Positions 1 to 63,535 of a stretch of DNA of 64,000 nt are shown piece after piece. The position numbers and the translations under genes were made by a program. How positions within the stretch are numbered: the stretch's first letter is position 1; each line of letters opens with the position of its first letter. The notes under the pieces were generated by a model that made no database searches, was not told where the DNA came from, and saw nothing but the letters and a program-made list of their open reading frames with translations. The stretch is from Anaeromyxobacter terrae (GTDB lineage Bacteria; Myxococcota; Myxococcia; Myxococcales; Anaeromyxobacteraceae), in NCBI RefSeq assembly GCF_022690685.1, contig NZ_JALCYY010000003.1, positions 1 to 64,000 on the forward strand, written 5' to 3'.

Positions 1-437
1 CGGACCTCCTCTGGCTCGAGACCCAGCACGATCGAGCCGAGGCGCGCCTCGCCCTCGTCGCGGCGCGCGCCACCGGGCTCGAGGTCGTGGTCACCTTCAC
101 CCCGGCCGGCGAGCCGCCCTGGACGCTCACCGACGGCACGCCGCTCGAGGAGGCGCTGCTCGCGGTGGCGTCGCTCGGCGCGAGCGCCGCGGGCGTGAAC
201 TGCGTCGCGCCCGGGGTCGCCCTCGCCGACCTCGCCGCGTGGGCGCGGGCGACCCTCCCGATCCCCTTCGTGGTGAAACCGAGCCCGGGGCTCCCCGGCG
301 CGGTGCGGTCGCCCGACGCCTTCGCGGCCGAGCTCTCCCCTGCGCTCGCCGCGGGAGTGGCGCTCGCGGGCGGCTGCTGCGGCGCGACCGGCGATCACCT
401 CCGCGCCCTCGCCGCGGCGTGGCGCGCGATCGCGTGA
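1..437 (+). CDS. Homocysteine S-methyltransferase family protein, C-terminal part
   Basis: The frame is already open at the left window edge (codons from base 3), so only the last ~144 residues are present. They end in the GGCCGATGDH segment, the zinc-binding GGCC motif of the Pfam S-methyl_trans family, and a further cysteine (GVNC) lies at the usual position of the first zinc ligand. An upstream DLLWLETQHD stretch fits the family barrel. The family transfers a methyl group from S-methylmethionine, betaine or methylcobalamin to homocysteine-type thiols. The donor cannot be told from this fragment, nor whether it is a stand-alone enzyme or the end of a longer MetH-like protein; the stop right after the barrel favours a stand-alone enzyme. 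Confidence 0.85.
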   Translation, partial: DLLWLETQHDRAEARLALVAARATGLEVVVTFTPAGEPPWTLTDGTPLEEALLAVASLGASAAGVNCVAPGVALADLAAWARATLPIPFVVKPSPGLPGAVRSPDAFAAELSPALAAGVALAGGCCGATGDHLRALAAAWRAIA

Positions 438-454
438 CCCCTCGATCGGGGGCG

Positions 455-58261: not shown

Positions 58262-59545
58262 TCACACCCCCGCGAGCGTCAGCGCCCAGCGGACCGCCCC
58301 GGCGGTGACGAGCACGACGACGGGGCTCACGCGGAAGCGCGACAGCGTGAGCGTGGTCGCGACGGCGATCCCGACCTCGGCGGGCCCGCGCATCGACGCG
58401 CCGAGGGTGACGGCCGCGGCGGCCATGAGCCCGACGACCGCCGGGGTGAGCCCGCGCAGCGCGGCCCGGATCGCGCGGCGCGAGCGCATGCGGAGGAGCC
58501 AGCCGCCGAGCACCACCACGAGCGCGAACGGCGCGGCGAAGATCGCGGCCGTCGCCACGATTGCGCCCGGGAACCCGCGCGCGACGTAGCCGATGAAGGT
58601 CGCCATGAGGAGCACGGGGCCGGGCGTGAGCTTCCCGACGGCGACGGCGTTCGTGAACTGATGCTCGGTGATCCAGCCGGCATCGACGACCGTGGCGTGC
58701 AGGTGGGGGACGATCGCGAACCCGCCCCCGTACGCGCCGAGGCCGGTGCGGAAGAAGAGCGCCCCGAGCGCCACGAGCCCGCCCAGGCCGACCTGGGTGA
58801 CGAGGCCGAGGGGAGCCACCGCGGCGAGCGGCGCGCTCTCCTCGGCGGGGCGCGTCTCGCTGAGCGGCTCGAGCCGCTGGCCCTCGTCCGGCAGCGCCAC
58901 CGGCGGCGACGGCCTGCGAGGCGCCCGGCGGATGCGGGCGAGCCGCGCGCGCTTCAGCAGGAGATCGATGACGAGTCCGGAGGCGATCCCGAGCCCCGCG
59001 ATCTCGCCGGAGGCCGCCCCGCCGGCGATGCTGAGCAGGAGCGCGATGGCCGCGACCCCCATCTGCCACGGCCGCCCGATTGACGTCCGGACCATTTGCA
59101 GCGCGAGCGCCGCCACGATCCCCACGACCGCCGCGTTGAGGCCGGAGAGGACGACCTCCGCGCGCGGCGCGACGCCGAACCGGACGTAGGCCCACGCGAG
59201 CGCGAGCGTCAGCAGCGCGCCCGGCAAGACGAAGCCGACGTAGGCGGCGAGCGCGCCGCTCATCCCGCGCAGCCGGAGGCCGATGTGCGCGAGCGCGTTC
59301 GCGGCGGCGCCGCCCGGGAGCATCTGCGAGACCGTCGAGGTGTTCGTGAACTCCCGCTCGGTGAGCCAGCGGCGGCGCTCGACCGCGAGGTGCCCGATCA
59401 TCCCGAGCACGCTCACGCCTCCGCCGAACCCGACGAGCCCGAGCCACAGCGACGCGCGGGCGAGCTCCCAGTGGGTCGGGATCGAGCGGGTCGTGGTCGC
59501 GGTCCGCTCGTGCGCTCGCTGGCCCTCGGTCCTCGCCCTCAGCAT
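58262..59545 (-). CDS. chrA: Chromate transporter ChrA, two-domain form
   Basis: A 427-residue CHR-family protein made of two homologous halves (about 25-200 and 240-425), each with an FGGG / AYGGG and PGP- or PGG-type motif (TVSQMLPGGAAAN and AVGKLTPGPVLL). The family exports chromate or sulfate-like oxyanions. The linker (~200-240) is charged. It is divergent from the methyltransferase gene. Confidence 0.9.
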   Translation of the reverse strand: MLRARTEGQRAHERTATTTRSIPTHWELARASLWLGLVGFGGGVSVLGMIGHLAVERRRWLTEREFTNTSTVSQMLPGGAAANALAHIGLRLRGMSGALAAYVGFVLPGALLTLALAWAYVRFGVAPRAEVVLSGLNAAVVGIVAALALQMVRTSIGRPWQMGVAAIALLLSIAGGAASGEIAGLGIASGLVIDLLLKRARLARIRRAPRRPSPPVALPDEGQRLEPLSETRPAEESAPLAAVAPLGLVTQVGLGGLVALGALFFRTGLGAYGGGFAIVPHLHATVVDAGWITEHQFTNAVAVGKLTPGPVLLMATFIGYVARGFPGAIVATAAIFAAPFALVVVLGGWLLRMRSRRAIRAALRGLTPAVVGLMAAAAVTLGASMRGPAEVGIAVATTLTLSRFRVSPVVVLVTAGAVRWALTLAGV

Positions 59546-59703
59546 CGTCGTATCCCGAGCGATGAGACGAGCGCGGCGGCGTCGCGACTCCGTCGCGCGC
59601 GCAGCGTCCCGTCCCTGGCGCGGCTCTGCATACCAGGGTCGAGGCGCGCCCGCCACGAACCTCCGTGCTTCCCGCTGGCTCTCCCGGGGGCGAGACTCTC
59701 GAC

Positions 59704-60351
59704 ATGGCCTGCCCCGGCGACGCTCCCTCGGACCTCGACCGCGCACTCGAGGCGCGCTACTCCCCCCTCGCGACTGCGGCGGGCTCGCTCTCCTGCGGGA
59801 GCGTGCTCGAGCACGCCGCGCCGCGCGCGGGCGAGACGCTCGTCGACCTCGGCTGCGGGCGAGGCCGGGAGCTCCTGCGCGCCGCCGGCGCGGTCGGCCC
59901 GGGCGGCCGCGCGATAGGCGTGGACGCGAACGAGGCGATGATCGCGGGGGCGAGCGCGCTCGCCGCGGGCCTCGCGCAGGTACGCCTCGTGCGCGCGGAC
60001 GTCGCCACGGTGCCGCTGCCCGACGGCGAGACCGACGTCGTCGTCTCGAACTGCGCCATCAACCACGCGCCGGACAAGGCCGCCGTGTACCGCGAGGTGC
60101 ACCGGCTGCTCCGGCCCGGCGGGCGGTTCGTCGTCTCCGACGTGGTCTCCGAGTCCACGCTCCCGGACTCCGTCCGCAGCGACCCGGCCGCATGGGCCGC
60201 CTGCTACGGCGGCGCGATCCCCGAGGCGGACTACCTGGCGGCGATCACGGCCGCGGGCCTCGCCGACGTGAGCGTCGTGCGCCGCACGGCGCCTTACGAG
60301 AAGGGCGGCGTGCGCGTCCTCTCGATCACCGTGAAGGGCCGGCGCCCGTAG
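59704..60351 (+). CDS. ArsM-like SAM-dependent methyltransferase
   Basis: A 215-residue class I methyltransferase. Motif I is VDLGCGRGREL (48-55 region), then VVSNCAINHAPDKAAVYREVHRLLRPGGRFVVSD; Cys117 and Cys167 (AWAACYGGAIPEADYL) occupy positions similar to conserved cysteines in arsenite methyltransferases, so thiol-bound metalloid or thiol substrates are plausible. ATG 59704 is the start. The radical SAM gene begins 18 bp downstream; this gene opens the cluster. Confidence 0.85.
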   Translation: MACPGDAPSDLDRALEARYSPLATAAGSLSCGSVLEHAAPRAGETLVDLGCGRGRELLRAAGAVGPGGRAIGVDANEAMIAGASALAAGLAQVRLVRADVATVPLPDGETDVVVSNCAINHAPDKAAVYREVHRLLRPGGRFVVSDVVSESTLPDSVRSDPAAWAACYGGAIPEADYLAAITAAGLADVSVVRRTAPYEKGGVRVLSITVKGRRP

Positions 60352-60369: not shown

Positions 60370-61722
60370 ATGCGGCTCTCGCGCTCCACCCTCGTCGCGC
60401 CCATCCCCGGCTCGCCCCGGGTGCTCCTCGTGCAGCCGCTCACCGGCCAGGCGGCGCTCGTCTCGGCCGAGGACGCCGCCGCCCTCCGCGAGCTCACGCG
60501 GGGCGGCGCGCTCCCGGCGTCGTTGCCCGAGGAGACCCTCCGCGCGGCGGCGTTCGTCGTCGAGTCCGACGAGGACGATCGGGCGCTGCTCGAGCGCGCC
60601 CGCGCGGAGTTCGAGCGGGAGGCGGCTCGGGCGCCGACGCAGCTCATCGTCGTGCCGAGCTTCGGCTGCAACCTCGCCTGCACCTACTGCTACCAGGAGG
60701 TCTTCGATCCCTCCGCGGCGGCGCTGATGGCGCCCGAGGTCATCGATGCGTTCTTCGCCTACGTCGACGCGAACCACGCCGCCGAGACCCCGCGGCCGTA
60801 CGTGACGCTCTTCGGCGGCGAGCCGCTGCGCGACACGCCCGCGCACCACGACCGGATCGGCCGCTTCCTCCGCCGCGCGGCGGAGCGGGGCCTCGCGCTC
60901 GCCTTCGTCACGAACGGCCACGATCTCGAGGCGTTCCTCCCGGCGCTCGCCGCAGGTCCGGTGAAGGAGGTGCAGGTCACGCTCGACGGCCCGCGGCCGG
61001 TCCATGACGCGCGCCGGCCGCACGCGAGCGGGCGAGGCACCTTCGACCGGATCGTGTCGGGCATCGACGCGCTCGTCCGCGCCGGCATCCCCGTGAACCT
61101 CCGCGTCGTCGCGGATCGCGGGAACCTGCCGGCGCTCCCGGAGCTCGCCGAGCTCGCCGCCGCGAAGGGCTGGCTCGAGCTCCCGGCCTCGCGCTTCAAG
61201 ACCCAGGTGGGCCGGAACTACGAGCTGTTCGGCTGCGCCTCCCGCCAGCGCCGCGAGGACCTCTTCGACCGCGTGGAGCTCTGGGCGCGCTACCTCGAGC
61301 TCGCCGAGGCGCACCCCATCCTTCGCCGCTTCCACAGGCCACGGTTCCACGGGATCGGCCACCTCGCCGACACGGGCGAGTTGCCGGCGCCGAACTTCGA
61401 CGCCTGCCCGGCCGCGAAGAAGGAGTGGGCCTTCGGCCCGGACGGGAGCCTGTACGGCTGCACGGCGACCGTCGGCCACCCGGCGCACGTGCTCGGCCGG
61501 TACCACCCGGTCGTCTCCCGCGACGACGCCGCGATCGCCCGCTGGCGCGCGCGCAGCACGCTAACGATCCCGCGCTGCGCCGAGTGCGCCGCCGCGCCGG
61601 TGTGCGGGGGCGGGTGCGGCGCGATCGCCTGGGATCGGGAGGGGACCCCGCTCGCGCCGGACTGCCGGCCGGTGCCCGAGCTCTACGGCCTGGGGGCGCG
61701 CTACTACGGCCTCGACGCGTGA
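60370..61722 (+). CDS. Radical SAM/SPASM peptide-modifying enzyme (putative)
   Basis: A 450-residue radical SAM protein. CNLACTYC (Cys100, 104, 107) binds the SAM cluster, LFGGEP follows, and the C-terminal SPASM domain has Cys346, GSLYGC (Cys364), CAEC (403, 406), Cys412, Cys416 and Cys432 in the full CX9-15GX4C...CX2CX5CX3C...C pattern for two auxiliary clusters. The N-terminal ~90 residues may be a peptide-recognition region. SPASM enzymes of this layout usually modify small peptides, and two very small cysteine-rich proteins lie downstream. The substrate is inferred from that. Confidence 0.93.
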   Translation: MRLSRSTLVAPIPGSPRVLLVQPLTGQAALVSAEDAAALRELTRGGALPASLPEETLRAAAFVVESDEDDRALLERARAEFEREAARAPTQLIVVPSFGCNLACTYCYQEVFDPSAAALMAPEVIDAFFAYVDANHAAETPRPYVTLFGGEPLRDTPAHHDRIGRFLRRAAERGLALAFVTNGHDLEAFLPALAAGPVKEVQVTLDGPRPVHDARRPHASGRGTFDRIVSGIDALVRAGIPVNLRVVADRGNLPALPELAELAAAKGWLELPASRFKTQVGRNYELFGCASRQRREDLFDRVELWARYLELAEAHPILRRFHRPRFHGIGHLADTGELPAPNFDACPAAKKEWAFGPDGSLYGCTATVGHPAHVLGRYHPVVSRDDAAIARWRARSTLTIPRCAECAAAPVCGGGCGAIAWDREGTPLAPDCRPVPELYGLGARYYGLDA

Positions 61723-61868
61723 GCGGCTGGCGCGGAGAAGCGGACCTGCGCAGCCCACATCTCGGGTGAACCCACGGGGCTGCGACCTCGTGTCGCGAAC
61801 CCCACCCGCTTCGAGCGGCTCGTACCGGGTGGCGCGAGGATCCGACGCACCCGTTCCTGGAGGCGCAC

Positions 61869-62054
61869 ATGGTCCCCGCGGCAACGCAGACGGTCCTCAC
61901 GCTCTCCCCGCGGGAGCTGCGGATCATGGTCCAGTCGCTCGTGAACTGTCTCGCGACTTGCCAGACACATGCGGTGAAGCCGGACGCACCGTGTGAGGAC
62001 TGCGACGCCGCACGCGCCCTGAAGGAGAAGCTCGAGTCCCACCTCGAACCCTGA
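61869..62054 (+). CDS. Four-cysteine small protein (61 aa)
   Basis: A 61-residue protein with TGGAGG five bases before ATG 61869. Two helices flank Cys27, Cys31, His34, Cys42 and Cys45 (CLATC, then PCEDC), a possible metal or cluster site. It has no signal peptide. It lies 12 bases before the 34-residue peptide gene and may be its partner or a second substrate of the radical SAM enzyme. No family is recognised. Confidence 0.72.
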   Translation: MVPAATQTVLTLSPRELRIMVQSLVNCLATCQTHAVKPDAPCEDCDAARALKEKLESHLEP

Positions 62055-62065
62055 AGGAGAGCGCG

Positions 62066-62170
62066 ATGAAGCTCCTCACCACGCTCAAGAAGCCCACCTG
62101 CTGCGCGCCGGAGAAGGTCGCGCAGTGCTGCGCCAAGGCATCCCCGCTCGTGTCGGGCTGCCACGACTGA
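62066..62170 (+). CDS. 34-residue cysteine-rich peptide, candidate modified-peptide precursor
   Basis: A very short gene with AAGGAGA seven bases before ATG 62066. The peptide is MKLLTTLKKPT followed by CCAPEKVAQCCAKASPLVSGC and HD: Cys12, 13, 21, 22 and 32, five of 34 residues. The N-terminus is a short basic/hydrophobic leader-like part, and the Cys pairs form the core. It sits between the four-Cys gene and a thioredoxin, downstream of a radical SAM/SPASM enzyme, so it may be a RiPP precursor or metal-binding peptide. No in-frame TGA (selenocysteine) is present. Confidence 0.75.
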   Translation: MKLLTTLKKPTCCAPEKVAQCCAKASPLVSGCHD

Positions 62171-62176
62171 AGCACC

Positions 62177-62192
62177 GCGGGGTCCGCCCCGC
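62177..62192 (+). promoter_or_regulatory. Stem-loop after the peptide gene
   Basis: GCGGGG/CCCCGC around TCCG begins seven bases after the peptide stop. It lacks a U-run, so it may only attenuate downstream transcription or protect the upstream mRNA. Confidence 0.5.
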
Positions 62193-62261
62193 ACCCTCCC
62201 TCACCCTCACCCTCCGGTAGCCGGGCCACCCGGCGCGGGAGGGGCTTGCCTGGAGATCCGA

Positions 62262-62597
62262 ATGTCCGCAGCCGTCGAGGAGATCAGCGCGAACCAGTAC
62301 GACGAGCGGGTGCTCGGGGCCGAGACCCCGGTGGTGCTCGACTTCTTCTCCACCGAGTGCCCTCCGTGCGAGGCGCTCGCGCCGAAGTACGAGGCCGTCG
62401 CCGAGCAGTTCGCGGGGAAGGTCCGCTTCCTCAAGATCTTCCGGCAGGGGAACCGCGAGCTCGCGACGAGGCTCGGTGTGAGCGGCAGCCCCACCCTCCT
62501 CTTCTTCAAGTCCGGCCGGGAGGTCGGGGCGCGCATGACCGGCGAGGACATCAAGCGGTCCGCGCTCAAGTCCGCGGTCGAGGCGCTCCTCCCGTGA
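62262..62597 (+). CDS. Thioredoxin with CPPC active site
   Basis: A 111-residue thioredoxin fold: [21 protein letters not shown] with Cys33 and Cys36, and [14 protein letters not shown] with the cis-proline. The CPPC dipeptide replaces the common CGPC, which changes redox potential in this family. It lies directly before the reductase-like gene (17 bp), so they act together. Confidence 0.9.
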
Positions 62598-62614: not shown

Positions 62615-63535
62615 ATGTCGGAGCGTTACGACGTCGCCATCATCGGGGCTGGACCGGCCGGGCTGACCGCCGGCATCTACGCGGCGCGCGCGCGGCTCAG
62701 GACGATCGTGCTCGACGAGAGCGTCCCCGGCGGGCAGGTGAAGACGACGCACAAGGTGTCGAACTACCCCGGGTTCCCCGAGGACGTCCACGGCTCGGAG
62801 CTCTCCGCGGCGTTCGCAAGGCAGGCGGAGCGCTTCGGCGCGCGGATCCGCCGCTCGGTGGAGATCACCGCGCACGACCTCTCCGCCTTCGTGAAGACCC
62901 TGGAGCTCGACGAGTCGGAGACGGTCGAGGCGCGCGCCGTCATCGTGGCCACCGGCGCGAAGCCCCGACCGCTCGGCGTCCCCGGGGAGGACACGTTCAA
63001 GGGGCGCGGCATCTCCTACTGCGCGACCTGCGACGGCGCCTACTTCGAGGGGAAGGACATCCACGTCATCGGCGGCGGCAACTCCGCCGTGGAGGAGGCG
63101 CTCTTCCTCACGCAGTTCGCGCGGAGCGTCACCATCGTCCACCAGTTCGAGCAGTTCCAGGCGGAGCCCGCCTCGGTGGGCGAGGCGCTCACGAACCCGA
63201 AGATCCGCGTCCTGTTCGGCCACGAGCCGCGCGCCTTCCACGGCGAGACCGCGCTCGAGGCGCTCGAGGTCGAGGCGCTGCGGACCCGCGAGCGCAAGCG
63301 GCTCCAGACGGACGGGGTGTTCGTGTTCGTCGGCATGGTGCCGCGGACCGACCTCCTCGCGCGCTACGTCGAGCTCGCGCCGGGGGGCTACGTCGAGACG
63401 ACCGACGCCATGGAGACGAGGATCCCCGGCGTCTACGCGGCGGGCGACATCCGCGTGAAGCGGTTCCGGCAGATCACCACGGCGGTCGCCGACGGCACCA
63501 TCGCCGCGCTGGCGGCGCAGAAGTACCTGCGCTGA
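62615..63535 (+). CDS. trxB: Thioredoxin reductase-like flavoprotein without the NADPH arginine motif
   Basis: A 306-residue two-domain TrxB: FAD motif GAGPAG near 11, VATGAKPRP, the CATC disulfide (Cys136, Cys139), the GGGNSA loop and the C-terminal AAGDIRVK. The HRRxxFRA motif that binds the NADPH 2'-phosphate in E. coli TrxB reads HQFEQFQA here (176-183), with all three arginines gone. The electron donor may be NADH, ferredoxin or another carrier. The start is ATG 62615. Confidence 0.88.

Follow-up and report, generated by a model that had tools for sequence, protein, structure and literature searches.

The locus examined here raises two linked questions: whether a 34-codon open reading frame (ORF) lying between a radical SAM (rSAM) gene and a thioredoxin gene is a gene at all, and, if so, what its small cysteine-rich product could do in the cell. 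The ORF (62066-62170, plus strand; translation MKLLTTLKKPTCCAPEKVAQCCAKASPLVSGCHD-stop) lies in the window, by which we mean the whole 64-kb stretch of Anaeromyxobacter terrae DNA that was analysed, and the first-pass annotation had proposed it as a RiPP precursor. The coordinates agree with the location that had been claimed, the ORF being flanked by the rSAM gene (60370-61722) and the thioredoxin gene (62262-62597), and its ribosome-binding site proved as well spaced as described, with AAGGAG (62054-62059, plus strand) 6 nt 5' of the ATG; an SD-like sequence is likewise found 5' of 69/73 members of the peptide family. A gap of 11 nt separates the ORF from the stop codon of a 61-codon ORF that precedes it (61869-62054), and a promoter and terminator scan of positions 61700-62300 returned no match. 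Among the 20- to 60-codon ORFs of the window, it is the sole one with at least five cysteines and two CC pairs. In four other Anaeromyxobacter species the frame and the cysteines are kept, the differences consisting only of codon substitutions and of 3-nt indels that sit in the N-terminal part of the peptide, and in the nearest relative within the genus, whose rSAM enzyme is 92% identical, the peptide gene carries two synonymous and no non-synonymous codon changes. Both checks that had been proposed, for frameshifts or stops in close relatives and for synonymous change, came out in favour of a protein-coding gene.

The peptide belongs to a family with the consensus MKx(L/V/I)...AQCC(A/S/T)Kx(S/T)xxxxGCHD-stop, which comprises 82 distinct peptides overall (a few with uncertain start sites) of approximately 30 to 50 residues and is present in single copy in nearly all genomes. 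The last 16 residues, in the window's peptide AQCCAKASPLVSGCHD (residues 19-34; 62120-62167, plus strand), are almost unchanged across four phyla (Myxococcota, Spirochaetota, Bacteroidota and Bacillota), with ten of the sixteen fixed, and the exact C-terminus AQCC.K.{6}GCHD-stop was observed in 75/75 profile-found loci from Myxococcota, Spirochaetota and Bacteroidota, some of which share one genome. Every synonymous codon of the invariant residues occurs among 72 distinct core DNAs, a set for which the pattern itself demanded Q, CC, K, G and C, making the 75-locus count the fairer test of invariance. Selenocysteine was considered for the core and rejected, the core Cys codons being always TGC or TGT. 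The N-terminal part (residues 1-18; 62066-62119, plus strand) has a leader-like MKLLT..K sequence in the window and, beyond MKx(L/V/I), varies across the family in both length and sequence. A CC pair occurs there in 44/82 distinct peptides, but because 35/82 have no cysteine before the core, the Cys12/13 pair is a local feature, and Cys21, Cys22 and Cys32, which form the CC and the C of the core, are the ones that matter. The expectation that all five cysteines would be conserved thus held for these three invariant residues and failed for Cys12/13; similarly, the cysteine that had been called terminal is invariant as Cys32 but is not the last residue, since His-Asp, both also invariant, follow it. 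The window's peptide had no match in Pfam or NCBIfam, and a comparison of 32 family members with NCBIfam gave isolated chance-level matches only.

Sequence comparison shows that 62066-62170 is a genuine gene, whose reading frame is preserved in those relatives that possess it. A chance ORF, the one reading that the very short length could favour, is refuted by this conservation: order-2 Markov sequences of the same size contain on average 0.017 ORFs of this kind per window, and 82 distinct homologous peptides with the exact C-terminal pattern are spread over four phyla, leaving chance a practically negligible probability.

A profile built from the genus detected the peptide in 23/195 Myxococcota genomes, and the peptide also adjoins rSAM orthologues of 39-45% identity in Spirochaetota, Paludibacter MAGs and Ignavibacteria. 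Profiles built from the enlarged set found it in 34/296 Spirochaetota, 5/296 Bacteroidota and 13/199 Bacillota (the phylum of Tissierella) genomes and in 0/149 genomes of Acidobacteriota; these five phyla are the ones covered by the peptide profiles, and many of the loci come from MAGs. The distribution follows that of the rSAM enzyme closely. Within the 195 Myxococcota genomes, the rSAM (at least 558 bits) is present in 24, the peptide in 23 and both in 23, which is 23/24 of those having either, and the peptide is missing from all six genomes whose only rSAM is a more distant one (161-237 bits). For the 296 Spirochaetota genomes, the corresponding numbers are 34 (including two rSAMs seen only as fragments at contig ends), 34 and 33, or 33/35 of those having either, and among 23 genomes picked by rSAM homology, the peptide was found in 18/19 with at least 39% identity and in 0/4 with a distant rSAM. 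The exceptions are few. The near-complete Myxococcota genome G046 (= G217, locus L051) has the rSAM orthologue, methyltransferase, thioredoxin and thioredoxin reductase, and its assembly contains no peptide, another gene occupying the expected place before the thioredoxin gene; at this locus the contig ends approximately 480 bases past the rSAM gene. G278 has the rSAM, as a fragment at a contig end, without the peptide, and G401 has the peptide without the rSAM. Plasmids gave no rSAM match at an E value of 1e-40.

The presumed maturase of the peptide is a radical SAM/SPASM enzyme (60370-61722, plus strand), in which alignment reveals invariant cysteines C100, C104 and C107 of the CxxxCxxC motif and seven SPASM cysteines (C346, C364, C403, C406, C412, C416 and C432). 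Its best solved relative by sequence is CteB (E value of 4e-23), and its predicted model (pLDDT of 86) matches the CteB fold with a Z score of 25.6 and an rmsd of 3.9 over 398 residues, N-terminal domain included. Residues 8-85 of the model form three strands followed by three helices and are aligned to the N-terminal part of CteB within the whole-model match (range 4..450), which fits a peptide-recognition (RRE-like) domain. The CteB/SCIFF pair, a thioether-forming ranthipeptide system (PDB 5wgg and 5why), resembles the present one in joining a SPASM rSAM with an N-terminal domain to a short Cys-rich peptide; it differs in that the fold alignment shows just about 15% identity between the two rSAM enzymes, the cassette core has three universal cysteines and ends in GCHD, and a methyltransferase, a thioredoxin and a thioredoxin reductase are additional. 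The nearest rSAM/SPASM families of NCBIfam are TIGR04463 (rSAM_vs_C_rich; 129-134 bits against a cut-off of 525), TIGR04280 (geopeptide maturase; 124 bits against 400) and NF038107 (CefB; 118-142 bits against 600), and the enzyme scores far below the cut-off in each case. With TIGR03974, the SCIFF maturase, it reached 72.5 bits against a cut-off of 425, and the core has three universal cysteines, not the six that define SCIFF. In four Spirochaetota genomes (G302, G358, G279 and G398; loci L166, L168, L169 and L170) and in G307, the C-terminal part of the rSAM is divergent, the profile match ending near position 367-375 of 431.

The genes around the peptide form a same-strand run of methyltransferase, rSAM, 61-codon ORF, peptide, thioredoxin and thioredoxin reductase, separated by 18, 146, 11, 91 and 17 bases. 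The thioredoxin (62262-62597, plus strand) has a TECPPC site, and the thioredoxin reductase (62615-63535, plus strand) has a CATC site and scores 348 bits with TIGR01292, for which the cut-off is 343. We scored the 86 distinct peptide loci wherever the flanks were long enough and found within 6 kb of the peptide the methyltransferase in 81/81, the rSAM in 81/81, the thioredoxin in 60/61 and the thioredoxin reductase in 64/65 cases; the methyltransferase and the thioredoxin/thioredoxin reductase belong to the peptide-rSAM unit. In the loci examined from Spirochaetota, Bacteroidota and Ignavibacteria, a single fusion protein combines the thioredoxin with its reductase (approximately 426 aa, e.g., L065:4635-5912 and other Spirochaetota and Bacteroidota loci). 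The distances of methyltransferase and rSAM correlate with r of 0.94 (0.89 and 0.76 within groups), as joint inheritance would lead one to expect. In 30 loci, viewed up to approximately 10 kb in both directions, neither a transporter nor a peptidase nor an ars gene is recurrent.

Other neighbours are more local. The 61-codon accessory ORF (61869-62054, plus strand; LSPRELRIMVQSLVNCLATCQTH...CEDCDAARALKEKLE), with CxxxC and CxxC motifs, lies within 6 kb of the peptide in 15/44 loci, usually directly 5' of it in Myxococcota; it is conserved in Anaeromyxobacteraceae and some other Myxococcota, has no family match and was found in none of the Spirochaetota loci. A DUF5714 protein (PF18978) lies within 6 kb in 16/41 loci, in or beside the cassette in some Myxococcota and in 6/10 Bacillota loci (L004:2850-3569, L047:6350-7069, L205:10272-10952 and L213:11656-12363), and is absent from the window's own cassette. 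A MarR-type regulator stands directly 5' of the methyltransferase in several Spirochaetota (L071:3734-4132 and L179:10641-11096), DUF1847 or rhodanese/CoA-disulfide-reductase-like genes occur near some cassettes, and a minus-strand ORF 5' of the window's methyltransferase (58262-59746) is, by eye only, a putative chromate transporter.

The methyltransferase (59704-60351, plus strand; approximately 215 aa) is a SAM-dependent enzyme whose best solved relative is the arsenite methyltransferase CmArsM, both by sequence (E value of 2e-38) and by fold (4fr0; Z score of 23.9, rmsd of 2.2 over 193 residues). Alignment to 4kw7 and 4fr0 places its Cys31, Cys117 and Cys167, invariant in 38/38 orthologues, at Cys72, Cys174 and Cys224 of CmArsM, which are the As(III) ligands of that enzyme (PMC12608789). 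The resemblance to the ArsM/AS3MT enzymes (CmArsM, PDB 4fr0 and 6cx6) thus covers the fold and the three As(III)-binding cysteines, and it extends to the company of thioredoxin and thioredoxin reductase, since a review reports that the Trx/TrxR/NADPH system raises methylation by AS3MT, an orthologue of ArsM (PMC12608789). On the other hand, the cassette enzyme is shorter, its match stopping at residue 249 of CmArsM in the sequence alignment and at residue 280 in the fold comparison; the peptide and the rSAM always accompany it, and no ars genes recur nearby. Because it is without the ArsM C-terminal domain and scores below the NCBIfam arsenite-methyltransferase cut-off (PRK11873, 168.9 bits against 263), its substrate could be other than arsenic.

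A second ArsM-like methyltransferase was observed in three species of the genus (loci L214, L215 and L216; G003:C1:2445037-2445549, G006:C1:3720450-3720959 and G005:C34:196247-196759), with an in-frame TGA (LWSG*IGGALPE) at the position of the cassette enzyme's third cysteine (CmArsM Cys224) and V and G at the other two cysteine positions. It is likely a selenoprotein with the UxxG motif (listed in PMC13188914).

Taken together, these observations favour reading the ORF as the precursor of a short thiol peptide, with the neighbouring radical SAM/SPASM enzyme as its likely maturase. The RRE-like N-terminal domain of the enzyme would most likely recognise the MKxL..K leader, and the radical centre would modify the core AQCCxKxSxxxxGCHD, for which a cysteine thioether or another change at the C-terminus is most plausible. 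A thioether as made by CteB is our first guess for the bond, by analogy with that enzyme; a C-terminal change is allowed by the fixed C-terminus, as in mycofactocin. The proposal of a RiPP precursor is supported by the co-occurrence with the rSAM in two phyla, its adjacency in four, the synonymous variation and the relationship of the rSAM to CteB, from which we infer the modification, and action of the rSAM on the peptide is very probable. The mature peptide would remain in the cell and act with the ArsM-like methyltransferase, the dedicated thioredoxin/thioredoxin reductase keeping both in the reduced state; that the peptide functions there with these partners is probable. An intracellular cofactor or carrier is favoured over a secreted product because the core is near-invariant, almost every genome that has the gene has just one copy of it, and neither an exporter nor a peptidase is conserved beside it. 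For the whole of this reading, a radical-SAM-matured thiol-peptide unit working with the methyltransferase and the thioredoxin system inside the cell, arsenic left aside, we estimate a probability of about 0.72. It agrees with mycofactocin and PQQ, the peptide-derived redox cofactors made with SPASM rSAM enzymes, in having a small conserved peptide, redox partners and no export, and differs from them in lacking a recurrent neighbouring gene for a separate recognition protein or a peptidase; the likeness is a functional analogy.

As to the cargo, a metalloid job is suggested by the presence of the methyltransferase with a dedicated thioredoxin/thioredoxin reductase, since ArsM-type enzymes bind As(III) via thiolates and need a reductant. 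In the role that we favour, the CC...C thiols would bind a trivalent metalloid, e.g., As(III), in a tris-thiolate complex and hand it on to the methyltransferase. That a metalloid is the substrate falls somewhat short of even odds, and the full proposal, in which a radical-SAM-crosslinked thiol peptide would take the place of glutathione in supplying As(III)-thiolate to the ArsM-like enzyme and be recycled by its own Trx/TrxR in at least four phyla, is tentative and, taken as a whole, rather unlikely. It would be in keeping with hosts that mostly appear to be without a clear glutathione synthetase: in 50 cassette genomes, GshB had a strong match in one (160 bits), weak ATP-grasp matches of 38-69 bits, which could be RimK-like, in 16, and none in 33, counts that are weakly suggestive of hosts short of glutathione.

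The main rival keeps the peptide as a redox cofactor and dispenses with arsenic: the peptide would be a dithiol/disulfide electron carrier or a thiol cofactor recycled by Trx-TrxR, and the ArsM-like enzyme would methylate the peptide itself, at a thiol or at the C-terminus, during maturation. A near-invariant core that ends at the C-terminus and a single gene copy in nearly all genomes suit such a cofactor, as do a thioredoxin and reductase that almost always lie next to the peptide and form one protein in several phyla, and the lack of conserved ars genes near the cassette. The methyltransferase, however, keeps exactly the three As(III)-binding cysteines of ArsM, which are not obviously needed for peptide methylation, and we regard this rival as a serious possibility that stays below an even chance. 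An ArsM-like enzyme beside a CC + C peptide would also suit an unmodified metal- or metalloid-binding peptide, a mini-chaperone of the ArsD or metallothionein kind, which could itself make a tris-thiolate site while the rSAM acts elsewhere and is linked by pathway only. Such a peptide would not account for its almost perfect co-occurrence with an rSAM orthologue that has a CteB-like N-terminal domain and RiPP maturases as relatives, and it is improbable. These relatives in turn, CteB and the NCBIfam RiPP maturases, with a small Cys-rich peptide beside the SPASM rSAM, are what recommends a secreted ranthi- or sactipeptide-type antimicrobial or signalling RiPP. Yet no exporter, peptidase or immunity gene is recurrent, the ten core residues fixed over four phyla are unlike diversifying bacteriocins, and the core ends at the natural C-terminus; a bacteriocin is disfavoured on the first two of these counts, and secretion in general is very unlikely.

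To conclude, the literature search, which covered the field in part, returned no paper with the core motif, with a system of rSAM, arsenite methyltransferase and thioredoxin reductase, or with DUF5714, and together with the libraries searched this suggests that the cassette is unnamed. As a system it is a variant of rSAM-dependent RiPP systems, and its reading as a metalloid cofactor would be new in kind. The pattern AQCC.K.{6}GCHD-stop provides an exact signature for annotating a gene that lies below common length cut-offs. The cassette is compact and widespread, with a peptide conserved like a cofactor and unlike an antibiotic, and, if the proposed function is true, it would connect the chemistry of radical-SAM-modified peptides with the biochemistry of metalloids or thiols.
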